A stretch of DNA of 55,421 bases, taken from IMG/VR virus record IMGVR_UViG_3300044729_001120, positions 1-55,421 of that record; one strand, given 5' to 3'. The stretch's first letter is position 1. The number at the start of each line of letters is the position of its first letter. Position numbers and translations under genes: made by a program. Origin of the DNA: a virus. Below, in pieces: positions 3,835-47,901 of the stretch. The notes under the pieces are model-generated. The model saw only the letters and a program-made list of their open reading frames with translations. It did no database searches and had not been told where the DNA came from.

Positions 3835-5031
3835 ATGTCGATGCGATTTAAGGGCGGGGTGATCTCCGCGACTCCCCCGACAACGCTTAGTGGAGTATGG
3901 ACACTTCAACAACAAATGCAAAAACTTGCCGCTGGGTATTGGTCTGGGGTATATCAACTTTGGGCATGGGGGTCTGGGTCCCAATCAGAGCTGGGGCTTG
4001 GTAATAACAAAGCTTATTCTTCTCCAAAACAAGTAGGTTCCCCTACAAACTGGAATTTTGTGGGGGCGACAAAAGAAGGTTCTTTTGCAATTAAAAAAGA
4101 CAACAGTTTATGGTCTTGGGGAAACGGCCAATACGGTCAATTAGGGAATGGTCTTGCTGGCGGTACTAATTTCTCAACGCCTGTTCAAACCGGATCGTTA
4201 ACTAACTGGTTGCAAATAAGTGGCGGCCTATTCAGTGTTCTTGCTGTTAAAACCGACGGAACTTTGTGGAGTTGGGGACGCAACGAATACGGGCAACTTG
4301 GTCTTAACAACGCAGGTGCCGGCGACGCAACTGCCCGATCCAGCCCTGTTCAAGTTGGTGCTTTAACGGGGTGGGCTACGACGTCTGCTGGATCTTATCA
4401 TTCCGTTTCTATTAAAACTGATGGCACACTCTGGAGTTGGGGGCGTAACAATCAAGGGCAGCTGGGTCTTGGAAATAACACTACTTATTCTAGCCCGAAA
4501 CAAGTCGGCGGATTAACTAGTTGGAGTAAAGTGGCTTGCGCTAATGAATCAACGGCGGCCATTAAAACGGATGGCACATTGTGGAGTTGGGGGCGAGGTT
4601 ACGGTGGGCAGCTCGGCATAAATAACACCTTTAACTATAACAGCCCCAAACAAGTTGGCGCGCTAACGGATTGGAGTAAAATTTCAGCTGGATTTAGAAA
4701 TTTTGTTGCGGTTAAAACGGACGGAACACTTTGGTGTTGGGGTTTTGGTGGTCGTGGTGAACTAGGTCAAAACAATACTACGACCAGCTCAAGTCCTGTT
4801 CAAGTAGGGGCATTAACAACGTGGTACGAACCGGGATCAGGAAATTCGTCATTTTTTTGTATTAAAACAGATGGCACACTGTGGGCTTGGGGCTATAACG
4901 GTTCTGGGAGACTTGGTCTCGGAAATACTGCAAACCGTTCAAGCCCTGTCCAGATAGGTACTGCAACTACTTGGACTACGATAGTAAAATCTGGAACTTC
5001 CTATCACACACACGCTATTAAAACTCCTTAA
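3835..5031 (+). CDS. RCC1-repeat beta-propeller protein, likely receptor-binding tail protein
   Basis: 398 residues. After an N-terminal segment (FKGGVISATPPTTLSG, shared in style with the gene at 6806), it has about seven copies of the RCC1 blade motif (IKTDGTLWSWG, then GQLG and SSPVQVGALTNW). RCC1/BLIP-II-type seven-bladed propellers are binding scaffolds. In phage tails such a protein probably contacts host surface glycan or protein. The coding sequence looks AT-richer than its neighbours, which fits a variable host-range locus. It pairs with the paralogue at 6806 around the sulfotransferase gene. Confidence 0.8.
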   Translation: MSMRFKGGVISATPPTTLSGVWTLQQQMQKLAAGYWSGVYQLWAWGSGSQSELGLGNNKAYSSPKQVGSPTNWNFVGATKEGSFAIKKDNSLWSWGNGQYGQLGNGLAGGTNFSTPVQTGSLTNWLQISGGLFSVLAVKTDGTLWSWGRNEYGQLGLNNAGAGDATARSSPVQVGALTGWATTSAGSYHSVSIKTDGTLWSWGRNNQGQLGLGNNTTYSSPKQVGGLTSWSKVACANESTAAIKTDGTLWSWGRGYGGQLGINNTFNYNSPKQVGALTDWSKISAGFRNFVAVKTDGTLWCWGFGGRGELGQNNTTTSSSPVQVGALTTWYEPGSGNSSFFCIKTDGTLWAWGYNGSGRLGLGNTANRSSPVQIGTATTWTTIVKSGTSYHTHAIKTP

Positions 5032-5039
5032 AGGAAGTC

Positions 5040-6809
5040 ATGAACAAAACCCTACATTTCCTCTCAGGCGTACCCCGTTCAGGCTCAACGGTCTTGGCGG
5101 CTATCCTGAATCAGAACCCAATGACGCATGTGTCTACTACGTCTGCTCTAGGCGCAGCTCTGGACGGTCTGGCTACGGCTTGGCATCGTGACAACCTTCT
5201 CGTAAACAACGATCCTGATCGCAGCAAACTGGCTCACACCATGCGCGGAGTGATTGATGCTTTCTACGAAGATGTCCCGAAACCCGTCATTATCGACAAG
5301 GCGCGTAACTGGCCGATCCCGGTCATCATGCAGGCGATGGGTCAAGTGCTGGGTCACAAGCCCAAGATCATCGCGACAGTGCGCTCTATCCCTGACTGCA
5401 TGGCATCCTTTGTCCGTGTAGCCAAGCCAACCAACTTGGATGACTTCCTTGTTAACAGCTCACTCACGAACCACCTGAAAGGCTCCTACCAGACGCTACA
5501 GGGCGGCTACGCTTACGATCCTGAAAGCTTCCTCTTTGTTGAGTACGAAGACCTGCTGGCCGACCCAAAGGCTCAGTTGCAGCGCATACACGCATTCCTT
5601 GACCTGCCTGACTTTGACTACGACTTTGCCAACATTGATGGCTCAACGGTCAAAGAGGATGACGAGAACCTGCACGGTTACTCTGGCCTGCACGACATCA
5701 AGCCGGTACTGGAAAGACAGCATCAAGAAAGCCCCAAGGACGTACTGAAGCACCACTACCCGCAGTTCTGTCAGCCTGAGTTCTGGCTTGAGCGTCCTCG
5801 CACAATCCCTGAGATACACGACCTTGATTTGCAACTGGTGGCCTCACGAATGGGCGACTTTGCCGAGGGCTGGAGACTGTGCCAGAAGCTGGAAAAGGAC
5901 GAGCCTGATAACCACCGTGCAGCCTACAACCGTGGCTGGTACTTGCTGCGTCAGGGTCAGATTCAGAAGGGCTACCAACTGCTGGATCGTGGCCGCATTG
6001 TTAACGTCTTTGGTAACGCCAAGCCAAGCGTCCCCACTCAGCCGTGGGATGGTAAGAGCAAGGGCATCGTTATGCTGCACCTTGAGGGTGGTCTTGGCGA
6101 TCAGATACATCAGGTGAGATACGCCAAGCTGATTGCTGATCGTGGCTGTAAAGTGATCGTGTCCTGCTCTGGCCCACTGGCCTCCCTGTTTGTTGACGTT
6201 GAGGGCGTGTCTGCGGTCATCCAGCACGAAGCGAGCTTTGGCATCTACCATGACTTCTATGTGCAGGGGATGTCTGCTGTAGTGCCTCTGGGGCTTGAAT
6301 TAAGCGATCTATCTGGCAAGCCGTACATCACGAAGCCTAAGACCATTAAAGCCCGTAGAAAGCGTATAGGGCTGCGCTGGCAGGGTCAGTCAGCATTTGA
6401 GCATGACCACAACAAGAAGTTTCCGTATGACCTGCTGTTTGACGCGGTGAAGGATGCAGACGCTGAGTTCATCTCCCTGCAACGCGATGAGGGTGCTGAT
6501 TCGTGCCCGTCTTGGGTTAAGCAAGTCCCGCTGGATAGCTGGGAAGATACCCGTGCTGCTGCGGCATCGTGTGACTTGGTGATCTCATCTTGCACCTCGG
6601 TCAGTCACTTGGCTGCGGCGATGGGTGTGGAGACTTGGGTCGTCACGCCCGTCATGCCATACTTTCTGTATGCCTTAGAGGGCGACACCTGTCCTTATTA
6701 CGATACAATGCGCCTGATGCGTCAGGAAGTGTTCGGTGACTGGACTGCCAGCTTTGAGAAGATCAAAGAGCGTCTGGGTGAGAAACAAGCCTTGAGGAGA
6801 GTTAAGTGA
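5040..6809 (+). CDS. Sulfotransferase - TPR - GT9-like glycosyltransferase fusion
   Basis: 589 residues in three parts. Residues 1-245 are a sulfotransferase: FLSGVPRSGSTVLAAIL at the N-terminus is the 5'-phosphosulfate loop of PAPS-dependent enzymes, and the VRSIPDCMASF stretch matches the 3'-phosphate-binding segment. Residues 265-325 look like TPR-type helices (AAYNRGWYLLRQGQ). The C-terminal half contains HLEGGLGDQIHQVRYAKLI, SCTSVSHLAAAMGV and WVVTPVMPY, as in GT-B enzymes of the ADP-heptose transferase (GT9) or TPR-glycosyltransferase class. It lies between two RCC1 tail proteins and overlaps the second by four bases. Likely reaction: sulfate transfer, and possibly sugar transfer, onto a surface glycan or virion protein. 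The acceptor is unknown. Confidence 0.8.
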   Translation: MNKTLHFLSGVPRSGSTVLAAILNQNPMTHVSTTSALGAALDGLATAWHRDNLLVNNDPDRSKLAHTMRGVIDAFYEDVPKPVIIDKARNWPIPVIMQAMGQVLGHKPKIIATVRSIPDCMASFVRVAKPTNLDDFLVNSSLTNHLKGSYQTLQGGYAYDPESFLFVEYEDLLADPKAQLQRIHAFLDLPDFDYDFANIDGSTVKEDDENLHGYSGLHDIKPVLERQHQESPKDVLKHHYPQFCQPEFWLERPRTIPEIHDLDLQLVASRMGDFAEGWRLCQKLEKDEPDNHRAAYNRGWYLLRQGQIQKGYQLLDRGRIVNVFGNAKPSVPTQPWDGKSKGIVMLHLEGGLGDQIHQVRYAKLIADRGCKVIVSCSGPLASLFVDVEGVSAVIQHEASFGIYHDFYVQGMSAVVPLGLELSDLSGKPYITKPKTIKARRKRIGLRWQGQSAFEHDHNKKFPYDLLFDAVKDADAEFISLQRDEGADSCPSWVKQVPLDSWEDTRAAAASCDLVISSCTSVSHLAAAMGVETWVVTPVMPYFLYALEGDTCPYYDTMRLMRQEVFGDWTASFEKIKERLGEKQALRRVK

Positions 6810-8032
6810 GTCAAAAATATCCCGGCGGTTTGATTAGAAAGACACCTCCCACCACTGTCGGCCCTGTCGATGGCGAGGGCGGCTCTGCGCCGGGTATCTG
6901 GACACTTGAGCAGGCAATGGAGTTGCAGAAGCAGAACCTGTGGCCGAAGCCGTTGATACCAAGAGCGCTTTATAGTTGGGGACAAAACGCCGCGGGTCAG
7001 CTTGGTCAAGGTTCTACCACCAACCTTTCCAGCCCTGTACAAGTAGGGTCTGCGACTGATTGGGGCAAATATGCTGCTATCGGTAATGCTCATGCATTAG
7101 CCCTAACATACAGAGGCGCACTGTTTGCTACAGGGCAGAATGCTAGTGGTCAACTTGGTTTTGGCTTCACGTTTATGGATTTCTCAACTTTTTCACAAGT
7201 TGGAGCATTGACAAACTGGCTTGATGTAGTGGCAACAAACGCTTCTTCTTCATTTGCTGTAAAGAAAGATGGAACTCTATGGTCTTGGGGTTTTGGAGGC
7301 TCTGGTGTTTTAGGTCACAACAACACTACCAGTTTTTCATCACCCGCGCAGGTTGGTTCTTTGTCTACTTGGTATCAAGTAACCTCGAACAATAGTTTTA
7401 CACTTGCAATAAAAACAGACGGCACCCTTTGGAGCTGGGGGGAAAACAGCTACGGTCAGCTTGGTCAAAATAATACAACTAACCGCTCTAGCCCTGTTCA
7501 AGTTGGTGGATTAACTAATTGGGAGCATGTATCTGCTGGCAGTAATCAATGTGTTGCTATCAAAACGGACGGCACCTTGTGGAGCTGGGGTCGGAACGCT
7601 AATGGTGAACTTGGTCAAGGTGATACCACCCACCGTTCCAGCCCTGTACAAGTAGGGGCGCTAACTAATTGGGCTAAGGTTTCGTCCGGCCAAAATTTTT
7701 GTCTTGCTATTAAAACAGACGGCACCCTTTGGAGCTGGGGTCAAAATACTTCAGGACAACTTGGTATTAATAGCGCCGCTGGTGAGAATCGCTCTAGTCC
7801 TGTACAAGTAGGGGCTTTAACCAATTGGGCACAAATATCGGCTGGTGAAGGTCACGGCTTAGCTATGGACACGAGCAATAAATTGTTCGCGTGGGGATTC
7901 AACTCCTCCGGACAGATAGGTCAAAACGATACAGCCAGCCGCTCTAGCCCTGTTCAAGTTGGTGCTTTAACCTCGTGGACAAAGTTGGCAACTAACCAAG
8001 GAAACTCATCTTTGGTCATAAAATTGCAATAA
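6806..8032 (+). CDS. Second RCC1-repeat beta-propeller tail protein
   Basis: 408 residues. It starts with GTG overlapping the TGA of the upstream gene (GTGA), which indicates translational coupling. The N-terminus (YPGGLIRKTPPTTVGP) parallels that of the protein at 3835, followed by six to seven RCC1 blades with the same DGTLWSWG and SSPVQVG signatures. It is a clear paralogue, so two propellers flank the glycan-modification enzyme. Alternate receptor-binding heads or a hetero-oligomer are possible; which one cannot be told from sequence. Confidence 0.8.
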   Translation: MSQKYPGGLIRKTPPTTVGPVDGEGGSAPGIWTLEQAMELQKQNLWPKPLIPRALYSWGQNAAGQLGQGSTTNLSSPVQVGSATDWGKYAAIGNAHALALTYRGALFATGQNASGQLGFGFTFMDFSTFSQVGALTNWLDVVATNASSSFAVKKDGTLWSWGFGGSGVLGHNNTTSFSSPAQVGSLSTWYQVTSNNSFTLAIKTDGTLWSWGENSYGQLGQNNTTNRSSPVQVGGLTNWEHVSAGSNQCVAIKTDGTLWSWGRNANGELGQGDTTHRSSPVQVGALTNWAKVSSGQNFCLAIKTDGTLWSWGQNTSGQLGINSAAGENRSSPVQVGALTNWAQISAGEGHGLAMDTSNKLFAWGFNSSGQIGQNDTASRSSPVQVGALTSWTKLATNQGNSSLVIKLQ

Positions 8033-8045
8033 CAGGAGATACCAA

Positions 8046-8444
8046 ATGCTTTTCGTCAAAATAGTAAACAATGAAGTAACGCAGTGCTGGGACACTCAGC
8101 CTCCCGCTGGTGAGTCAGGCTGGAAGTCAGCCATCGAAGTGCGCCCTGCTCTGACACCTAACCGTCAGCAGTACACAGCTCACAGTTTTGACATCACTAA
8201 AGACCCCGTAGAGATCGTCTGGGGCGTGGTTGACATTACTGCTGAAGACCGTAAGGGTGGACTGCGCTCACAGGCTGCTGCTGCGTTCCAGCAAGTTGTG
8301 CAGGAAGAGATGCGTAAAGAAGTCGATGACTTCCCAGAAACTCAGTACAACGCTGCAACGGTTGACGCTGCTCGCATTGCCTTTGAAACTCGCGTGACTG
8401 CAATCAACGCAGCCACTACGCATGACGAGCTTGATGCGCTGTGA
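8046..8444 (+). CDS. Tail fibre assembly-like small protein
   Basis: 132 residues. The N-terminus (MLFVKIVNNEVTQCWDTQPP) and the long C-terminal helical region with charged repeats are typical of short proteins that follow phage receptor-binding genes and act in fibre assembly or as a C-terminal cap. It starts after GGAGAT at 8036 and ends overlapping the next start (GTGAG). The role is inferred from position and general shape. Confidence 0.5.
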   Translation: MLFVKIVNNEVTQCWDTQPPAGESGWKSAIEVRPALTPNRQQYTAHSFDITKDPVEIVWGVVDITAEDRKGGLRSQAAAAFQQVVQEEMRKEVDDFPETQYNAATVDAARIAFETRVTAINAATTHDELDAL

Positions 8445-9136
8445 GACTGAACTTCTCGTATGACATGATTCCATCGTGCGCCTACATCATTCGGGTGGTG
8501 GGCAACGCTGCCTCTGAAGAAAAGGCCAAGCGGTGTGCTATGTCGTGCGAGAGAGCGAATCAGCCCTACGAGTTCTGGGATGCCTATGACGGTACGGGTG
8601 AGGGTATTAAAGAACCCAATCATCACAATGTCATCATGGACTGCATCAAGGTTACTGACCACTACCTGACCCGTGGTGAAGTAGCCTGTGCGTTGAGCCA
8701 CATCAGTCTATGGGCAAAGTGCGTACTTGAAGACAAGCCGCTGGTTATCCTTGAGCATGACGCGCTGATGGCTAAACCCTACACGCAACACGCGGTGTTT
8801 AATTCAATCTGCTACTTGGGATCGCACGAGCAGGTGAAGCTTGGCTGGCAGGTATCGGCTACGCCACCTCACGCAACTGAGGGTGAGAATTACCACTTTT
8901 TGTGCCGCGCACATGCGTATGCGATTGATCCGGCTGTAGCAAAGAACCTGCTGGCCTATGTGATGAAGATGGGCATCTGTACCTCCCTTGATATGCTGAT
9001 TCGTGCTGACCTCTTCCCCATCCACCAGATGGGTGTCTACGCCTACAACGTGTATGAAAGCCGAGAAGAAACAACGATCAAGGGCAGGGCGTTAGAGGGC
9101 AGGGCAACCAAGCGCAACGATGGGCTGGTGGTATGA
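8441..9136 (+). CDS. Glycosyltransferase family 25 (LPS-type) enzyme
   Basis: 231 residues with the GT25 pattern: CAYIIRVVG at the N-terminus, then TRGEVACALSHISLWAKC, then PLVILEHDALM as the acidic metal/nucleotide-sugar motif (the usual form is EDD, here EHD). GT25 enzymes add hexoses to lipooligosaccharide or to collagen-type hydroxylysine. The start is a GTG overlapping the previous TGA, and the end overlaps the next gene's ATG by four bases. It forms an operon with the next glycosyltransferase and the APS kinase. Confidence 0.8.
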   Translation: MRLNFSYDMIPSCAYIIRVVGNAASEEKAKRCAMSCERANQPYEFWDAYDGTGEGIKEPNHHNVIMDCIKVTDHYLTRGEVACALSHISLWAKCVLEDKPLVILEHDALMAKPYTQHAVFNSICYLGSHEQVKLGWQVSATPPHATEGENYHFLCRAHAYAIDPAVAKNLLAYVMKMGICTSLDMLIRADLFPIHQMGVYAYNVYESREETTIKGRALEGRATKRNDGLVV

Positions 9137-9843
9137 TACCCAAGAAGGTACACCTTTCTTGGAAGACTAAAGACTTGTTAGACAGTAAAAGCCCGTTGGT
9201 TGTACACGGGGTTAAACGGCTGGTGGACTTAAACCCAGACTGGGAAGTGACGATCTACGACGATCAAGAGGTAGACGACTACCTTAAAACCCAGTTAGAG
9301 CCGCAGGTGTATGCCCTGATTGCCAGCAAGCACATTGTGCAGAAGACTGACCTGTGGCGCTTAATTAAGCTGTATGAAGAGGGTGGACTGTACATTGATG
9401 TCGATAGATTTGTGGACACACCACTAAATGATCTGGTGGACGAGAACACAAAATGGGTCTTGCCAACCTACCGCGACTACGACTTTTCCCACGACTTCAT
9501 GATGACTGCGCCACACAATCCGGCTTATCGTTTGGCCGCGCAAATGTACATAGAGCGAATGAATCAGGGGCATACAAGCGTTTATTTTCTTGGCCCACAG
9601 ACATACATGCACGCGGTGACGCAGACCCTGACCGGGGAAATGCTCAACACTGATTTAGGCATTGCAGCCTTTGACAGGCTCAGAGACATCATGAAGAGCT
9701 GCGGGTTTATAAAGACGTTTCGAGAAGAGCCACCCTATAATACAATCGTGTATCGAGGCGAGAACTTAGGCTTAGATTGGGAGCAGGAAAAGCGTAAGTT
9801 TTATGCAGAGTCAGGGTTAAAGCATTGGTCTGGGGACTGGTAA
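9133..9843 (+). CDS. GT32-like glycosyltransferase with DXD motif
   Basis: 236 residues. The N-terminal IPKKVHLSWKTK, the middle KTDLWRLIKLYEEGGLYIDVD and the MTAPHNPAYRLAAQ segment are the hallmarks of the sugar-binding-DXD glycosyltransferases (OCH1/capsule mannosyltransferase type, GT32). DVD is the metal-binding motif. It uses a nucleotide sugar to extend a polysaccharide or glycoprotein glycan in the cytoplasm. Translation is coupled to the GT25 gene through an ATG-TGA overlap. Confidence 0.82.
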   Translation: MIPKKVHLSWKTKDLLDSKSPLVVHGVKRLVDLNPDWEVTIYDDQEVDDYLKTQLEPQVYALIASKHIVQKTDLWRLIKLYEEGGLYIDVDRFVDTPLNDLVDENTKWVLPTYRDYDFSHDFMMTAPHNPAYRLAAQMYIERMNQGHTSVYFLGPQTYMHAVTQTLTGEMLNTDLGIAAFDRLRDIMKSCGFIKTFREEPPYNTIVYRGENLGLDWEQEKRKFYAESGLKHWSGDW

Positions 9844-9844
9844 G

Positions 9845-10285
9845 ATGAAGATTCTGGTGATGGGCTTACCCGGTTCTGGCAAGACAACCTTTGCTCGGTT
9901 CCTCGCTGAATACTTTCGGTGTGTGCATTTTAACGCTGACGACATACGCGAGAACGTCAACAAGGACTTGGGGTTCAGCCTTGAGGATCGTATTGAGCAG
10001 GCTCGGCGCATGGGGCATCTGTGCAACGTTGCTGGCCGCTGGGGTTCGACTGTGGTTGCCGACCTTGTGTGTCCAACCGAAGAGACACGTGAGGCGTTTG
10101 GTGCAGACTTTGTCGTGTGGATGAACACCACCAAGCAGGGCAGGTTTGAGGACACCAACGCGATGTTTGTGCCGCCTGCACACTATGACTACCGAATTGA
10201 TGACTTTGCGATGCAGATGACGTATCACGCCAAGGAGATTGCGAACCTGTGGACACAAAAAAACGCAGCATCATCAAAACAATAA
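9845..10285 (+). CDS. cysC: Adenylylsulfate (APS) kinase-like protein
   Basis: 146 residues. The P-loop GLPGSGKTT is at residues 7-15, followed by FNADDIRENVNKDLGFS, the CysC signature in which the Asp/Arg/Asn residues hold APS, and then EDRIEQARRMGHLC and VVADLVCPTEETREAFGADF. The order matches APS kinase, which phosphorylates APS to PAPS. It is shorter than cellular CysC (about 200 residues) because the C-terminal segment differs. PAPS is the donor used by the sulfotransferase encoded at 5040, so the two probably work together. A related nucleotide kinase activity is a less likely alternative. Confidence 0.72.
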   Translation: MKILVMGLPGSGKTTFARFLAEYFRCVHFNADDIRENVNKDLGFSLEDRIEQARRMGHLCNVAGRWGSTVVADLVCPTEETREAFGADFVVWMNTTKQGRFEDTNAMFVPPAHYDYRIDDFAMQMTYHAKEIANLWTQKNAASSKQ

Positions 10286-10452
10286 CGTGGCGCATAACGG
10301 GCAGCACAGCGACTTTTTTGATATCCTATGCCGTCTCTGGAAGTTTTGCGGCAGCAGGAACGATAGCAACGATTCAACTGATTTCTAATACTATTCTGTA
10401 CTACATGCACGAAAGAGCGTGGAACCGACTGAGGAGTGAATCGTGGACATAG
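10249..10452 (+). CDS. DUF2061 small membrane protein
   Basis: 67 residues starting at a GTG inside the 3' end of the kinase gene (37-base overlap, different frame). It shows the DUF2061 pattern: RSIIKTITWRITGSTATFLI, then a second hydrophobic segment, then LYYMHERAWNRL. Two transmembrane helices are predicted. The deep overlap with the APS kinase gene suggests coupled expression and a shared function, perhaps sulfate or sulfur handling at the membrane. That link is inference. Confidence 0.75.
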   Translation: MDTKKRSIIKTITWRITGSTATFLISYAVSGSFAAAGTIATIQLISNTILYYMHERAWNRLRSESWT

Positions 10453-41766: not shown

Positions 41767-44700
41767 ATGCCCAATTTAACTGCGCGAGAGATGTTGTTAC
41801 GGCTTCCGATGCGGATGGCGGAGGGTGGAGCGGTGGACACGGCTCCGGGAGTGTCGGCGGCGTATCGCAGAGCGATGCAGGTCGGCGGTCAGCAGACGGT
41901 TGACGACTACTACGCCAATCTTCGTGCTGATGCAAAGGCGTACCTTGCCAATCCCAACGCGCCGACTGGCGCTGAGGCGTACAACGTGCTGCTGCAGTCT
42001 GGCATCAGCACCTCTGACCTGATCAATGCGGGCGTGGATCAGGCGGTGCTGGACAAGATCTTTGCGGTCAAGATGCCGATTATCCCGCAGTCGCAGTTTG
42101 TGACGCCAACTGGCATGACCTCGGCGTATGAGCGCAGTCCCGATCTGGCGTTTGAGTCGCAGCGCTTAACCGCGCAGGGGCAGGATGGCCGGGCGATACT
42201 AGACAAGCAAGGCCGTGACTACATTGCGAACCTGCAGCAGGGCGGCATTGATGCGGCTGAACGTGCGCAGATGCTGGAGTACGCTACTGAGCGCGGGTAC
42301 TCGTTTGATGACCTGATGAAGGCCGGCGTGGATCCCAATGTGCTTTTCACCCGTCCGCAGGCTGCTCCGCCACCGCCCCCGTTCCCCGATCCCGTGCCGT
42401 ACACGCCGATAACGGTGTACCAGCCGCTGCCGACGCAGCCCGACATCTTTGCTGCTGGGCAGCCTGCTCTGGACACGACGTTCAGGGAGAGCTCTCCGCG
42501 CACCGCGATCCCCGGCATGCCGGGCCAGTTCGACTACAGCCCAGCGGCGAAGTTAAGACCCGCAACAGGCGCAGGCTTTACCTTCACGCCGCCAAGCGTG
42601 ACCTCTCGTCCGCGCTCGTTACTAAGCCCGAGGGAGATCCAAGCCTACGGCGGGCTGACGTCGGCCTCGCAGCGTTTTGCGCAGAACCGACAGCTGTTGG
42701 ACAACAACCTGCGCAGGCTGGCGCAATCAACACCCGCGCTTAAAGACCTTAAAACCTACAATCAGCTGCGCAACATGATGATGTCGAGTTATTTTGCTGC
42801 TGACCCCAACACGTTATCAGATCCCCTCTTGGCGTTTGACCCCAAGACGGTTGAGGGGCAGAACCTTCAAAAGTACCTTGCTGGTTTGCCTGCGCCCAGC
42901 ACGCAAAAGCCTGATCCCATAGTTGTCACTGACGGCATGACCGGCAAGGACGTTGAGATTGACGCGCCTGTGTACGGTGGCTTTTTGCCCTTTGCCAAGG
43001 GCGGCTACGTAAAAAAGTCTGATGGGTCGGCAAGGGATGGGCTGGCTCGCTTTCAGGAAGGCGGTGAGGTTAGTGGTCGCAGGCCGCTGAGTCCGAATGA
43101 TCCGTTGTACATCAGGCAAGATGCGCCTGTTAATCTAGATGAGCTACGGCGCCGGCAGCTGGGGGATGTTGCCCCCGCAGCCGATGCGCAGTTGCCGCTA
43201 GACGAACTGCTGCGTCGTCAGCTGGAGGGTATCGACAACACGCCGTCAACGGCGCGAACTGCAGGATCGCAGCAGAGCGAAAGCCGCAATATGCTGCAGA
43301 ACATTGTCGCTGGCGCTAAGCAGATCCCCGGCACTGTCTTTGACTACGGCAGGGGCATTGCGCAGAGCGAAAATCCCTTGGCACAGATTCGCTCTGATGT
43401 TGGTGCGATGGGCGGGGCGATGATAGAGGGCGCCAAGCAAGACCCATTGGGCTTTGCTTTGGACATGACGCCAATTATCGGTGAAATACGATCTGGCATG
43501 GACGCAAAGAAATACTCGGACATGGCGAATGAGGCTGACAGGGCTGGAGATTATGAACTTGCTGACAGCTACCGGCAGGTTTCCACGATGGCAGCGGCAG
43601 GAGCAGTTCCCTTTGGCGGCATCGGCGCTCGCGGCGCGCGACGCGCGGCAATGAGTGATATGGCTGATGTGCCGCCAGACAGCGCCAGAGGGATGCTGGA
43701 CGCGCTAACGCCTGAAGCTGGCGTTGACGCCCCAAGAACACCCGGCGAAGACGTTGACGCCTTGACTGCACTGGACCAGCCGCCGGCAGGCAGTGCTGCG
43801 GCGATGTTGGATGAGGTGGATGCTGCGGCCCCAAGCGCCAGATTGAGTAGAGATGAGCTTGGCAGGATAAATGCCAGCGTTGGCTCTAATAGAATTAAAC
43901 AGCGGGCCATGAAAGAAGAGACTCGAAGAATTAAAAATAACTTTCTCCCTGATGATGGCTGGGAAAGGATTAATTTTTCAGGCGTTAAAGAAAACAAGCC
44001 GGATTTTAAAAAAATAGCCTATGGGTTTCAAAAGCCTCCAGAGGGGCTTGATAAGGGAGAGTGGGCAAATCGTCTTTCTGACAACTTAGTTTCAGAGGTA
44101 GACGGGGTAGTGCAGCGCGCACGATCAGGAGATCAGGCAGCAATTGATATACTGCGGCAGGCTAATTGGTATCGTGGAATGCGAGACCAGCTGCGCTCCG
44201 AGTTTGGAGGCATTGGTGACGTTTTTGCAGACGTACTTGGCACAACGAGCGCTCAGACAAATGTAGAGCAAAATTTCCGTAACGCCACTGAAATATTGCG
44301 CAGATATAGCCGGGGAGAGTTTGACACTGAGCTGCAAGCTTATGAAAACAGAATAAAACAAGGCATCCCTGTGGATGGAAAAACTTTAACTGCGTTGCAC
44401 AAAGCAGGAGAATTTCCGTTAATTACCAACTCCGCTGGGAAACTATTTAACACAAACAGCCCGTCCTCAATGGGGGCGCTGCTGGACATGTTCCGATCAG
44501 TAAAGACTGGTAGCGCGCCAAAAACACCAAACTTTACCGGCAACCTTATTGGCCTTACCAATGAAGCAACAGTAGATGTTTGGGCAGCACGAATGCTGCG
44601 CAGGCTTTCGGGACAGTCGCGCATACCGCCTGTGGCTGAACAAGGGGTCACCGGAACTCACTTGGTTGGATCCAGTCTTGGGAATCCAAGGGTTGGTGGC

Positions 44701-47700
44701 GAGTTCGGTTTTGGTCAAGATGTCTTTAGAAGTGCTGCAAACAGGATTAACGAATCTGGTAACGTAAAGTCTGTTGTTCCTGAAATGGGCGATCTTGGTC
44801 CTGACGACCTGCAGGCGGTTGCTTGGTTCATGGAAAAAGAAAGATGGACAAACAATGGCTGGACAACAAAAGCCGGTGAAGGCGGATCTCTTGAATACGA
44901 AATGTCCCTAGCCGGAAGCCCGGATCAAGTTCGCATTGATGATTTGCGTCGAGAAATTAATACAGGCTTTAAAACCCCAAATAAAAGAAAAAAAGAAACT
45001 GATGCCGAATATGCAGAGAGAGTAGCTCAAGCAAGGCGCGTCTATGACAACCGGCAGGAGCTGGCAGGCATAGAACTGCAGTCGCTTCAGGCCCCGCTGC
45101 AGCGTTATACAGTTGGCGTTTCTGGAGAGCGTCCTGATTTGCCGATGAGTAATTACGCTCAGGCAGAACTTGCAGCTGAGATTGATGACGTGGTTCGTAA
45201 TGATTCTTCAGTGCTTGGATATAACCTTGCTAATACCTATGGATCTTTCATGGGAAATACAGAAAGAGCATTAAATGCTGAATTTGTAGTCCAACAAAAT
45301 TTTAATCCAAGTGCTTTGATTAGAAGACTGGTTGAGCAGGGTAAAAATTACAATCAGGATGCCGTATTCATATCTCGCTCCGTTCCTGCTGGCTCTCCAA
45401 ACGCAAGGCCGGGGGCAGAGATATTTTTTAAAGAAGAAATATCTCCGAAGGAGCTTGCCAAGATTACAGCTCGTTTAAGGGAATATGGAGTGGACGGATT
45501 TACTTATATAACAGACATGAGGTTTGATGACAGAATCAACCGTCAGGCTCGATCAGGAGCTCCCGAGACGGCAAAATTAACTGGATTGCGGTTCCAGTAC
45601 ATACCTGAATTTGACGAAGGATTTGACCCAAGACGCGCTGATGAGATTTATAAAGAAAAAGAAGATTTGTTTGCAGCGATTCTTGCGGATACAATGGCAG
45701 ACCAAAACGTATCTGACATAAGATATAATTTTTACGATACGCAAGTCTTTTTTAGGGATGGCTACGATGAGTACCTTACAAGAAATACTCCAGCGAGTGG
45801 AAGCCAAGCAGGGGGAGAAGTCTCCAGTGGCGCAGGCTCTGCGCAATCAAATCGCGGCAGAGAAGGGCAAGCAGAGCTTCCAGAACCTGTACGTGACCGG
45901 AGCGGTCAAGCGGCCCGCGCAAGCCCCCAAGAAGGCATAGATAACTTCGCCAAAGGCGGCGCAGTCACCTCCTCGCGTCGCATGCTAGAGAACCTCATTG
46001 GAAAAAAGCCTGAAGGCCAGCGCGTTGATGCGACTGGCCTGCTTGGCTTTGCCAATGGTGGAGAGGCTCGTGTAGGCGGCAGCGCCCCAGCAGTTGCTGG
46101 CCGCACGGGCAGGGCTGCTCAACTAGCAGCACAAAGGGCAGAGGAACCACAGACTGAAAGCCGCGCCATGCTGGAGCGTTTAGATGCGGCCACGCCTGTT
46201 GAGCGCGCCGTGTTTGAATCAACGGGCATGGAGCCGGGTCTGGACAGAGCCATGATGTTACCCTTTGCGGGCAGCCGTGAAGAGGGGAACCTGCAGCTTG
46301 CCGCGCCGGGCTTTGTCTACGACGCAGCAAGGGCGTTTGTCACCCCGGGCATGGCCGCCAGAGGTCAGCGGGTGTCGGATGAGGACATCCTTAACACTGC
46401 TATGAACGTCATGGGCGGCGGCGTAGGCGCGAGTCGAGTTGCAGGGCCTAGAACCGCTCCGGACGAAATGCTGCTGGGTATGGGGGTTGGGTCGAATGTT
46501 ATAAAATTGGGGAATACGGGCGGAAGTAACGCACGTAACGCTGCGGATGAGTTAAAGGAGATTTTTGCAGAAAACCCGCTTAATTCAAGGGAGTTGATAA
46601 GCAACACGGCAGGTGCAACAGTGTACTCAATGGGAGACACGCTACACCTGTCTGATATTCGTACATTCGACCCCGGAAAAGGTGGGGCATCAAAAATGTT
46701 GCGCAGCATTTTAGAAGTTGCAGACAAAAACAATGTCCCTGTTACATTGACCGCAGACAATTATAGTGGGGATGGACTTACCACAGCACAACTTGTTGAC
46801 TGGTACAAACGCAACGGCTTTGAGGTTGAAAACGACTTTGGGGATGATGGCGTAGACATGATCCGTCAGCCTAGAAATATTACTGAAGAGGCTTCCGGTG
46901 CAGCTAGGTCTACACCAACCGCCGCTGACGACCTTGCTGCGTTGACGGATCGGGCTCCGACTACCAGTAGCATAGCTGCTAGGTCTGCGAATGTAGTAAC
47001 CGCTTTAAATAAAAGCGGAGACCCTTTAGGCATAAACGTAGCCGTAGATCCGCGTAACGGAACGGATTACGCGGACCTTATTGTCAGCGGCGCTAAAAAG
47101 TTTGAAAGCCGAGAGACAGCATCCCTAAAGCCTTACGTGGGTAAGAGAGTAGGTATTGTGCGTACTGGTGCAGGTCAGGCAGAAGTTATAGGCTCTGTTG
47201 AAATAGGTCAACCTATTAAAGTTAATGAAAAACAGTTTAATCAGCTTAGGGATCAACACCTAGTTGCAGAAGATTCTTCGTTTAACATTAAAAAAGGCCA
47301 AACTAAATTCCTTTATCCCATGATAGACCCCACATCTACGCCTCCTCAAAAAGTCACGTCTAAAGGAATTGTAGCTAGGGCTATCCCCACCGGGCAAAGG
47401 GCCGCCGACGACCTTGCTGCGTTGACGGATCGTGCCCCCAAGCTTATTGATTCATTGCCGGGAAGAAACGAATTAAATTATTGGATTGATGGTGGTCAGG
47501 ACGCAGTTGAAAGAGGGTTCCCTGAAGAGCCTTTCATCCTCTTAGACAAACTCTACATTGACCCGCAAAACAGAGGCCAAGGCGCTGCTCGACAAGTGCT
47601 AGTAGAAGGCTTGCAAGAAATGGCAGAGCAATATCCCGGTATGGACGTTAGGCTTTTGGCCGAGCCACTTGATAGATCAACAAATCAAAGTGACCTAGTA

Positions 47701-47901
47701 AGGTTGTATGAGTCTGTTGGGTTTGAGGTTGACAATTACCAAGATGGAATGAGCTCAATTCCGATGTCTCTACGACTTCCCAAAAAAGTCGCAAGGACTG
47801 GGGGCAACACACCACCCGCTGCACTAGGCTACGCCAAAGGCGGCGCAGTCACCAAGAACAACGTAGAACGCATGCGCAACGATAATCGAAAGTATCTTTA
47901 G
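41767..47901 (+). CDS. 2044-residue polyvalent (multi-domain) protein
   Basis: Very large protein between terminase and portal. The N-terminal 700 residues hold helical and low-complexity parts with FAKGG motifs. Residues about 700-1340 include GDVFADVLGTTSAQTNVEQN and NFTGNLIGLTNEATVDVWAA, seen in phage polyvalent proteins. Near 1620-1700 a GNAT-like acyltransferase (FDPGKGGASKMLRSILEVAD); 1750-1880 an ASCH/PUA-like domain (YADLIVSGAKKFESRETASL); 1925-2000 a second GNAT domain (LYIDPQNRGQGAARQVLVEG). Probably co-injected effectors. Two identical DNA linkers flank the ASCH part, and a second frame is open at 45767. Confidence 0.65.
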   Translation: MPNLTAREMLLRLPMRMAEGGAVDTAPGVSAAYRRAMQVGGQQTVDDYYANLRADAKAYLANPNAPTGAEAYNVLLQSGISTSDLINAGVDQAVLDKIFAVKMPIIPQSQFVTPTGMTSAYERSPDLAFESQRLTAQGQDGRAILDKQGRDYIANLQQGGIDAAERAQMLEYATERGYSFDDLMKAGVDPNVLFTRPQAAPPPPPFPDPVPYTPITVYQPLPTQPDIFAAGQPALDTTFRESSPRTAIPGMPGQFDYSPAAKLRPATGAGFTFTPPSVTSRPRSLLSPREIQAYGGLTSASQRFAQNRQLLDNNLRRLAQSTPALKDLKTYNQLRNMMMSSYFAADPNTLSDPLLAFDPKTVEGQNLQKYLAGLPAPSTQKPDPIVVTDGMTGKDVEIDAPVYGGFLPFAKGGYVKKSDGSARDGLARFQEGGEVSGRRPLSPNDPLYIRQDAPVNLDELRRRQLGDVAPAADAQLPLDELLRRQLEGIDNTPSTARTAGSQQSESRNMLQNIVAGAKQIPGTVFDYGRGIAQSENPLAQIRSDVGAMGGAMIEGAKQDPLGFALDMTPIIGEIRSGMDAKKYSDMANEADRAGDYELADSYRQVSTMAAAGAVPFGGIGARGARRAAMSDMADVPPDSARGMLDALTPEAGVDAPRTPGEDVDALTALDQPPAGSAAAMLDEVDAAAPSARLSRDELGRINASVGSNRIKQRAMKEETRRIKNNFLPDDGWERINFSGVKENKPDFKKIAYGFQKPPEGLDKGEWANRLSDNLVSEVDGVVQRARSGDQAAIDILRQANWYRGMRDQLRSEFGGIGDVFADVLGTTSAQTNVEQNFRNATEILRRYSRGEFDTELQAYENRIKQGIPVDGKTLTALHKAGEFPLITNSAGKLFNTNSPSSMGALLDMFRSVKTGSAPKTPNFTGNLIGLTNEATVDVWAARMLRRLSGQSRIPPVAEQGVTGTHLVGSSLGNPRVGGEFGFGQDVFRSAANRINESGNVKSVVPEMGDLGPDDLQAVAWFMEKERWTNNGWTTKAGEGGSLEYEMSLAGSPDQVRIDDLRREINTGFKTPNKRKKETDAEYAERVAQARRVYDNRQELAGIELQSLQAPLQRYTVGVSGERPDLPMSNYAQAELAAEIDDVVRNDSSVLGYNLANTYGSFMGNTERALNAEFVVQQNFNPSALIRRLVEQGKNYNQDAVFISRSVPAGSPNARPGAEIFFKEEISPKELAKITARLREYGVDGFTYITDMRFDDRINRQARSGAPETAKLTGLRFQYIPEFDEGFDPRRADEIYKEKEDLFAAILADTMADQNVSDIRYNFYDTQVFFRDGYDEYLTRNTPASGSQAGGEVSSGAGSAQSNRGREGQAELPEPVRDRSGQAARASPQEGIDNFAKGGAVTSSRRMLENLIGKKPEGQRVDATGLLGFANGGEARVGGSAPAVAGRTGRAAQLAAQRAEEPQTESRAMLERLDAATPVERAVFESTGMEPGLDRAMMLPFAGSREEGNLQLAAPGFVYDAARAFVTPGMAARGQRVSDEDILNTAMNVMGGGVGASRVAGPRTAPDEMLLGMGVGSNVIKLGNTGGSNARNAADELKEIFAENPLNSRELISNTAGATVYSMGDTLHLSDIRTFDPGKGGASKMLRSILEVADKNNVPVTLTADNYSGDGLTTAQLVDWYKRNGFEVENDFGDDGVDMIRQPRNITEEASGAARSTPTAADDLAALTDRAPTTSSIAARSANVVTALNKSGDPLGINVAVDPRNGTDYADLIVSGAKKFESRETASLKPYVGKRVGIVRTGAGQAEVIGSVEIGQPIKVNEKQFNQLRDQHLVAEDSSFNIKKGQTKFLYPMIDPTSTPPQKVTSKGIVARAIPTGQRAADDLAALTDRAPKLIDSLPGRNELNYWIDGGQDAVERGFPEEPFILLDKLYIDPQNRGQGAARQVLVEGLQEMAEQYPGMDVRLLAEPLDRSTNQSDLVRLYESVGFEVDNYQDGMSSIPMSLRLPKKVARTGGNTPPAALGYAKGGAVTKNNVERMRNDNRKYL
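45767..45940 (+). CDS. Nested +1-frame ORF of 57 residues inside polyvalent gene
   Basis: MSTLQEILQRVEAKQGEKSP, then VAQALRNQIAAEKGKQSFQN: helical, normal composition. The enclosing frame here reads Gly/Ser/Arg-rich low complexity, as expected for an out-of-frame reading. AGGG lies 10 bases upstream of the ATG. It may be a real overlapping gene, or a relic of an ancestral separate gene absorbed by readthrough. Confidence 0.45.
   Translation: MSTLQEILQRVEAKQGEKSPVAQALRNQIAAEKGKQSFQNLYVTGAVKRPAQAPKKA
46927..47432 (+). repeat. Direct 26-bp linker repeats flanking ASCH-like domain
   Basis: Identical stretches GACGACCTTGCTGCGTTGAC plus GGATCG occur at 46927-46952 and 47407-47432, exactly 480 bp (160 codons) apart. 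Both encode DDLAALTDR. They bracket the ASCH-like domain and one junction of each GNAT domain, which suggests modular insertion or deletion by recombination. Confidence 0.8.

Follow-up and report, generated by a model that had tools for sequence, protein, structure and literature searches.

The window (the whole stretch of DNA analysed, 55,421 nucleotides) is a phage genome: it is an IMG/VR virus record and contains terminase, portal, helicase, primase and tape measure genes. Positions 3835 to 10452 hold a cassette of closely spaced genes (Table 1). A sequence-only reading had described this cassette as two RCC1 propellers flanking a sulfotransferase, followed by GT25, GT32-like, APS kinase-like and DUF2061 genes. 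We found Pfam matches to all of these, with scores above the gathering cut-offs, as for all Pfam assignments of cassette genes. The gene overlaps that had been claimed were borne out by the coordinates, in four overlapping pairs of gene ends (6806/6809, 8441/8444, 9133/9136 and 10249/10285). No ATP sulfurylase gene was found among the genes of the cassette, and the small protein 8046 had no informative Pfam match. The earlier observation on the cassette as a whole largely holds, and its first interpretation is partly supported.

Table 1. Genes of the cassette, with coordinates in the window and the basis of each assignment.
Feature	Coordinates	Strand	Basis
RCC1 beta-propeller protein a, putative tail or receptor-binding protein	3835..5031	+	Pfam RCC1 and WD40_RLD far over cut-off; N-terminal motif; divergence
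Putative sulfotransferase (Sulfotransfer_3 N-domain, weak TPR, C-terminal domain)	5040..6809	+	Pfam; invariant motifs; PDB profile matches; cyanophage homologues
RCC1 beta-propeller protein b	6806..8032	+	Pfam; start overlaps sulfotransferase stop codon
Small protein 8046 (132 aa), steadiest partner of the module	8046..8444	+	Downstream of sulfotransferase in 18/18 clusters
GT25-type glycosyltransferase, accessory	8441..9136	+	Pfam Glyco_transf_25, 1.2e-16
GT32-type (DXD) glycosyltransferase, accessory	9133..9843	+	Pfam Gly_transf_sug, 1.4e-11
Compact lid-less APS-kinase-like protein, predicted PAPS-forming	9845..10285	+	Pfam APS_kinase; AlphaFold model; fold matches; APS-site residues; linkage
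DUF2061 small membrane protein, accessory	10249..10452	+	Pfam, 4.9e-21

We found that the N-terminal domain of the 5040-6809 product has the features of a sulfotransferase. Residues 7-192 match Sulfotransfer_3 (5.5e-16; 59.9 bits against a cut-off of 27) and Sulfotransfer_1 (6e-11), and Pfam sulfotransferase matches were present in 14/14 members of the family. PDB profile matches over residues 5-190 were to tyrosylprotein and CurM sulfotransferases. Conservation of the PAPS loop among homologues had been named earlier as a check on this assignment. The 5'-phosphosulfate loop, G10-x-P-R-S-G-S-T17 (P12-R13-S14-G15-S16-T17), was invariant in 14 diverse homologues, as were R115 and S123 of the 3'-phosphate-binding motif. 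Based on its family and these motifs, we regard the domain as a putative PAPS-dependent sulfotransferase.

For the rest of the protein, the proposals of the sequence-only reading found little support. A GT9-like domain was not supported: Glyco_transf_9 was absent by Pfam from the 14 family members, and hhalign against a phage GT9 protein gave a probability of 0.3%. The proposed TPR domain gave Pfam matches solely below the cut-off (residues ~267-310, 17.6 bits against 32.7). The C-terminal domain (residues ~288-587) is common to cyanophage proteins annotated 'TPR', and one cyanophage homologue of it adjoins tail-fibre and BNR genes. The C-terminal two thirds are conserved to the same degree as the enzyme domain. 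This might indicate that the protein is a structural or regulatory one that no longer catalyses anything, that the kinase acts elsewhere, and that no sulfation occurs. We consider this highly improbable: the PAPS-loop and 3'-phosphate motifs stay invariant at an overall identity of ~70-85% among the 14 homologues, and every family member retains its sulfotransferase match.

The compact kinase (9845-10285) matches Pfam APS_kinase over residues 3-84 (2.5e-13), and its PDB sequence matches are mostly PAPS synthetases and CysC. It had been asked earlier whether this protein is a different kinase by structure. In a PDB fold search with its AlphaFold model (pLDDT 92), the top 50 matches were without exception APS kinases (50/50), the best being human PAPSS1 with APS (TM ~0.83). 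Residues corresponding to the APS site (D32, R35, F44, R49 and R55) were fully or almost fully conserved across 92 sequences. The protein thus resembles CysC and the PAPSS kinase domain in fold and APS-site residues, and alignment with E. coli CysC showed that the P-loop is kept. In contrast to CysC, the lid (DPKGLYKKAR) is deleted, with a GRFEDTN..F.PP motif in its place, and the score of 46 bits is under the NCBIfam apsK equivalog cut-off of 138.7. The equivalent of CysC Ser109 is Cys or Ala in this family. From the fold, the conserved APS-site residues and the linkage to sulfotransferases described below, we predict that the protein converts APS to PAPS; it probably makes the sulfate donor for the 5040-6809 enzyme.

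This pairing of an enzyme that makes the donor with one that uses it, part of the sequence-only reading, is strongly supported, because members of the kinase family are repeatedly linked to sulfotransferase genes, both in further phages and in bacterial genomes, once as an in-frame fusion. In several of the loci L095-L107, reached by a kinase-first search of phages, distinct Sulfotransfer_3 genes lay 0.7-0.9 kb upstream, and Sulfotransfer_2 genes accompanied the kinase in 11/35 further phage contigs. The in-frame fusion, in locus L190, joins Sulfotransfer_2, the kinase and a small nucleotidyltransferase (NT). In bacteria, a sulfotransferase-like gene called by motif lay within ~4.5 kb of the kinase in ~24/80 loci, a count over the whole set of 80, and Pfam confirmed most of a sample of these calls. 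Bacterial genomes have just ~1.5 Sulfotransfer_3 genes each as background. A probability of 2e-26 computed from 20 genomes does not serve as a test here, since those genomes were partly picked after their neighbourhoods had been viewed; we rely on the full set of 80 loci in its place. The bacterial kinase/sulfotransferase loci adjoin genes for an autotransporter passenger, a TPS adhesin and an RTX protein. Cultured Stenotrophomonas phages have a kinase-NT fusion and no annotated sulfotransferase nearby.

The window kinase is a member without NT of a kinase(-NT) family, and no NT gene adjoins it. Its bacterial relatives are often fused to the NT. The kinase and NT together may constitute a miniature PAPS synthase, since SAR11 and SAR86 genomes with both are mostly without a classical ATP sulfurylase: among 18 SAR11/SAR86 genomes with the kinase, the counts were 0 for CysD, 2 for ATP sulfurylase and 13 for Sulfotransfer_3 genes. 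Like PAPS synthase, a fusion of APS kinase and ATP sulfurylase, many cellular relatives join the kinase to an adenylyltransferase-type domain, but the fusion is ~260 aa rather than roughly 550-630, and its NT is NMNAT-like in sequence. We suggest, tentatively and at somewhat less than even odds, that the lid-less kinase and the small HxGH NT form a so far unrecognised PAPS synthase of miniature size (~260 aa, as a fusion or as two proteins) that is spread among alphaproteobacteria, SAR11, SAR86 and the phages of these, serving dedicated sulfotransferases that act on secreted adhesins in bacteria and on receptor-binding propellers in phages. In other phages and bacteria the NT would possibly supply APS to the same kinase, making a self-contained PAPS synthase, and the version in the window phage would rely on host APS.

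PDB profile search, single-sequence hhalign and Foldseek of a model of the fusion, whose C-terminal part is of low confidence, did not establish the NT as an ATP sulfurylase. The best Pfam match of the NT was CTP_transf_like, with PF01747 at 17.2 bits against a cut-off of 24.3, and the second half of one kinase-NT member matched PRK05537 at 1.3e-5. A second kinase, beside a canonical ATP sulfurylase in a Pelagibacter genome, was rejected as direct proof: this APS-kinase-like protein, with a DGDHVRKF motif, is distinct from the compact kinase and lies in an apparent surface-glycan cluster. The best PDB matches of the NT profile were NMNATs (2e-10), not ATP sulfurylases. This match, the missing lid and a NADAR gene adjoining the fusion in Stenotrophomonas phage Bhz60 are what one might expect if the protein were no APS kinase but a salvage kinase that produces NAD or a sugar nucleotide with the NT of its relatives, its position beside the sulfotransferase reflecting a common mobile tail region. 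We think this quite unlikely. The window gene has no adjoining NT partner, its top 50 fold matches are exclusively APS kinases, the APS-site residues are retained, and the family is linked to several sulfotransferase families, and to one by fusion, in unrelated genomes.

We surveyed 91 sulfotransferase loci in 22 clusters. The core order was RCC1, sulfotransferase, RCC1, small protein 8046 and kinase. This arrangement is more than chance, because the same gene order was found again in many diverged IMG/VR contigs. An RCC1 gene was upstream of the sulfotransferase in 18/20 clusters and immediately downstream in 15/21; 8046 was downstream in every cluster with enough flank. The kinase was present in 13 of 18 RCC1-sulfotransferase clusters and missing from 5. 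A DNA search for cultured phages with the whole cassette gave no match.

The glycosyltransferases had been taken as members of the pathway, but GT25 was found in only 3/18 sulfotransferase clusters and GT32 in only 2/18, as was DUF2061 (2/18). These genes are accessory, lineage-specific additions to the module. DUF2061 was also rejected as a sulfur-linked gene: it had no match in 10/10 larger genomes that have the kinase, and in bacteria it was not consistently associated with sulfur genes. Locus L225 alone has DUF2061 on both sides of the kinase.

The RCC1 proteins look like virion proteins or receptor binders, judging from their location, divergence and common N-terminal motif. Pfam found 7 RCC1 stretches in propeller a and 6 in propeller b (212 and 221 bits). 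The motif GGVI..TPPTT..G(V/I)WTL of propeller a resembles that of propeller b and those found in 45 RCC1 ORFs from relatives. Between phages, the propellers are only ~50-60% identical (propeller a ~48-57%) where the sulfotransferase is 93-99% identical.

Our results are most consistent with the locus being a sulfation module of the phage, in which the compact kinase supplies PAPS and the 5040-6809 enzyme sulfates, most likely, a propeller protein or a glycan on it; we give this a probability of roughly 0.6. The kinase would phosphorylate host-made APS to PAPS, whose sulfuryl group the sulfotransferase would then pass to an acceptor, most likely the propeller protein (a tyrosine or other side chain) or its glycan. 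The propeller is the likeliest acceptor because the sulfotransferase gene lies within the virion region between fast-diverging RCC1 genes, and moves together with these and with 8046. Such sulfation may adjust how the phage binds its receptor or help it evade recognition by the host. However, the GT25- and GT32-type genes overlap within one gene run in the window, and other phages with the kinase have glycan-modification neighbours, such as an FkbM methyltransferase and a GT9 protein. These might instead indicate that host LPS, capsule or other surface glycans are what the module sulfates during infection, with GT25/GT32 adding glycosylation, so that adsorption of competitors is blocked or receptors are hidden. 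This is the main rival, and we judge it rather unlikely, given that GT25 and GT32 are missing from most sulfotransferase clusters where RCC1 and 8046 are near constant, and that the cassette is in the virion-structure region. From its genomic surroundings, the module is more likely to act on tail proteins than to block superinfection.

Dedicated enzymes for PAPS supply are encoded with a sulfotransferase in known bacterial systems. Rhizobial NodPQ-NodH, which acts in Nod-factor sulfation, combines APS/PAPS-making enzymes with a sulfotransferase. The window cassette shares this logic but is phage-borne, with a lid-less 146-aa kinase, no CysN/CysD partner, and a sulfotransferase that is fused to another domain and placed among propeller genes. 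Xanthomonas RaxPQ-RaxST is chromosomal, uses a classical ATP sulfurylase and APS kinase, and sulfates a tyrosine of RaxX, a secreted peptide. It is similar in joining PAPS supply to a sulfotransferase and in protein sulfation as the output (here proposed). Unlike NodPQ- and RaxPQ-type operons, the window cassette has no ATP sulfurylase gene. Phage glycosyltransferases can glycosylate virion proteins; the proposed modification of tail proteins by the phage itself is comparable, with sulfation in place of glycosylation. Sulfotransferases recur in marine phage genomes, and their function has been called unclear (PMC10580990). Those of Synechococcus phage S-SKS1 and OM43 phages (PMC10580990) have a similar annotation or Sulfotransfer_3 domain, but they have been described with neither a donor-making kinase nor linkage to propellers. 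The sequence-only reading knew of no described phage system of this composition, and our literature search for a phage sulfotransferase with APS kinase, cysC or RCC1 likewise found no relevant paper.

The module suggests that sulfation serves some phages as a way of modifying either their own tail or the surface of the host. The conserved donor-maker and donor-user pair, tied to propeller genes, gives phage sulfotransferases a testable pathway and a defined class of substrate. If virion sulfation is true, phage host recognition would gain a further post-translational modification. If the kinase-NT pair acts as proposed, it would explain the source of PAPS for sulfotransferases in organisms without the usual sulfate-activation genes.

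Our window is a 55,421 bp phage genome fragment (an IMG/VR record) that encodes terminase, portal, helicase/primase and tape-measure proteins. We found that the genes proposed as a sulfation and glycosylation cassette in the sequence-only reading are true open frames, in a single direction and with short overlaps. Pfam bore out the RCC1, Sulfotransfer_3, GT25, GT32-type, APS_kinase and DUF2061 assignments, all above curated cut-offs. Two other domains proposed for the sulfotransferase 5040 (ORFs are named by their start in the window) did not hold up: the GT9-like part was without support, and the TPR matches in Pfam fall under the cut-off. Elsewhere, a single very long ORF (41767-47901, 2044 aa) has terminase and portal on either side, and a 273-aa protein of similar short repeats (1875-2696; ...GVEGTGAVGTVSIAIN...) is encoded ahead of the module, in the structural region.

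Features of the window and related bacterial fusion genes
ORF or locus	Feature	Basis
3835	RCC1 repeats	Pfam, above curated cut-off
5040	Sulfotransfer_3, residues 7-192	Pfam, above curated cut-off
6806	RCC1 repeats	Pfam, above curated cut-off
8441	Glyco_transf_25	Pfam, above curated cut-off
9133	GT32-type DXD domain	Pfam, above curated cut-off
9845	APS_kinase	Pfam, above curated cut-off
10249	DUF2061	Pfam, above curated cut-off
L163:9959-10759, L176:9803-10762, L182:9980-10762, L207:9983-10771, others	Lid-less APS kinase-HxGH nucleotidyltransferase fusions, Alphaproteobacteria	

We found that the core of the module is the propellers, the sulfotransferase, the small protein 8046 and the kinase. 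IMG/VR searches with the sulfotransferase and with the kinase gave 80 loci each, in partly overlapping sets, and the order RCC1, sulfotransferase, RCC1, 8046, kinase occurred repeatedly. We grouped 91 sulfotransferase loci at 90% identity into 22 clusters. RCC1 was upstream of the sulfotransferase in 18/20 clusters and downstream in 15/21; 8046 was present in 18/18 and the kinase in 13/18. These counts define the core, since GT25 (3/18), GT32 (2/18) and DUF2061 (2/18) were rare. The kinase slot is filled by the window type (motif DLGFS) or by a sister type with NDWDFS, in which fusion to a small nucleotidyltransferase (NT) is common. One well-supported branch parts the two; many forks of the tree are unresolved. 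Propellers were only ~48-60% identical between phages with sulfotransferases 93-99% identical, a divergence that would fit proteins pressed to change, such as receptor binders.

The 146-aa kinase 9845 is APS-kinase-like, with probable APS kinase activity, but short of a proven CysC. We chose this name because it passes the Pfam cut-off, falls short of the NCBIfam apsK cut-off, and lacks the DPKGLYKKAR lid of E. coli CysC, having GRFEDTN..F.PP in place. Compared with that enzyme, it keeps the P-loop, D-x-x-R, and the GFS phenylalanine and following arginines. PDB sequence matches were mainly PAPS synthetases and APS kinases. The best 50 PDB fold matches to its AlphaFold model (pLDDT 92) were all APS kinases, the top one human PAPSS1 with bound APS.

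5040 is a putative PAPS-using enzyme, and its N-terminal features are those expected of one. The PRSGST loop and the R115 and S123 positions were invariant across 14 diverged homologues, and a PDB profile search matched residues 5-190 to protein-tyrosine sulfotransferases and the CurM sulfotransferase. The C-terminal domain (residues ~288-587) is common to cyanophage proteins (23-33% identity), some annotated TPR; in phage BUCT-ZZ01 its homologue follows tail-fibre, hypothetical and BNR-repeat genes.

Kinase and sulfotransferase are also linked outside this group of phages. At several of the loci retrieved with the kinase (among L095-L107), a distinct Sulfotransfer_3 gene lies 0.7-0.9 kb upstream, and 11/35 further kinase contigs have Sulfotransfer_2 genes (E up to 0.05; 8 above cut-off). 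Bacterial carriers of the same kinase include Bradyrhizobium, Methylobacterium, Rhizobium, Chelatococcus, Pelagibacter and SAR86. By motif, ~24/80 bacterial loci have a sulfotransferase-like gene within ~4.5 kb of the kinase. A Pfam scan of candidates found Sulfotransfer_3 in L163, L165, L176, L182, L188 and L207, Sulfotransfer_2 in L190, and zero matches for L196. In L190 (Rhizobium sp. BK376), Sulfotransfer_2, kinase and NT form a single frame. A sample of 20 kinase-bearing bacterial genomes had only ~1.5 Sulfotransfer_3 genes per genome, so linkage by chance is expected well below 1%, a soft figure because of the many truncated contigs and the close relatedness of some genomes. Several bacterial kinase loci also encode large surface proteins: L207 has a PATR autotransporter passenger, L175 a TPS-secreted protein, L219 an RTX/cadherin protein and L210 an Ig-like protein.

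At L175:5660-20350, two large TPS-type adhesin-like genes with identical first residues flank the kinase and sulfotransferase. Carbamoyltransferase-like proteins (by eye) lie near the kinase and NT at L143:3870-13649 and L149:3936-5534, the former with a Sulfotransfer_2-like gene; both loci are possibly surface-sugar modification clusters.

For a module with the observed families, motifs, fold and linkage, we infer the following activities and acceptor. APS from host ATP sulfurylase would be converted to PAPS by 9845, and 5040 would then sulfate the acceptor. As acceptor, the propeller protein or a glycan that it carries agrees best with the order of the genes, the divergence of the propellers and the parallels in bacteria; the chief alternative is glycans of the host surface. 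Phage sulfotransferases are already known, their function termed unclear (PMC10580990). Among openly licensed papers, we found none tying them to APS kinase or propellers.

The lid-less kinase together with the small NT may be a miniature PAPS synthase. Most larger-genome bacterial members examined have a C-terminal NT domain with GRYQPFHDGH...NPF...YGRDVGY...ISATEIR, and the alphaproteobacterial fusions are often close to sulfotransferases. The NT domain is nearest to NMNATs by sequence; the second half of one member weakly matches an ATP sulfurylase/APS kinase profile. In cultured Stenotrophomonas phages a kinase-NT fusion is set among nucleotide-metabolism genes, and in vB_SmaS_Bhz60 (L240:5556-6732) a NADAR-domain gene immediately precedes it. 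This setting hints at an NAD-related role for some family members and counts against synthesis of APS by NT.

A Pelagibacteraceae contig (G070 contig 7, L244:3913-5326) has a short ATP sulfurylase adjoining a different APS-kinase-like gene, inside an apparent surface-glycan (NeuB-like) cluster.

Among 18 kinase-bearing SAR11 and SAR86 genomes, all partial so that absence is not proof, CysD was found in 0, PF01747 ATP sulfurylase in 2, NT (fused, adjacent or elsewhere) in 16 and Sulfotransfer_3 in 13. Most would have a kinase without an APS source unless NT makes it. PAPS supply with a sulfotransferase is a known kind of system, and a new PAPS synthase possibly lies behind the module. The streamlined SAR11 and SAR86 genomes (L220-L239) combine kinase and NT genes with sulfotransferases and mostly lack a recognisable ATP sulfurylase, which raises the question of where their APS comes from.
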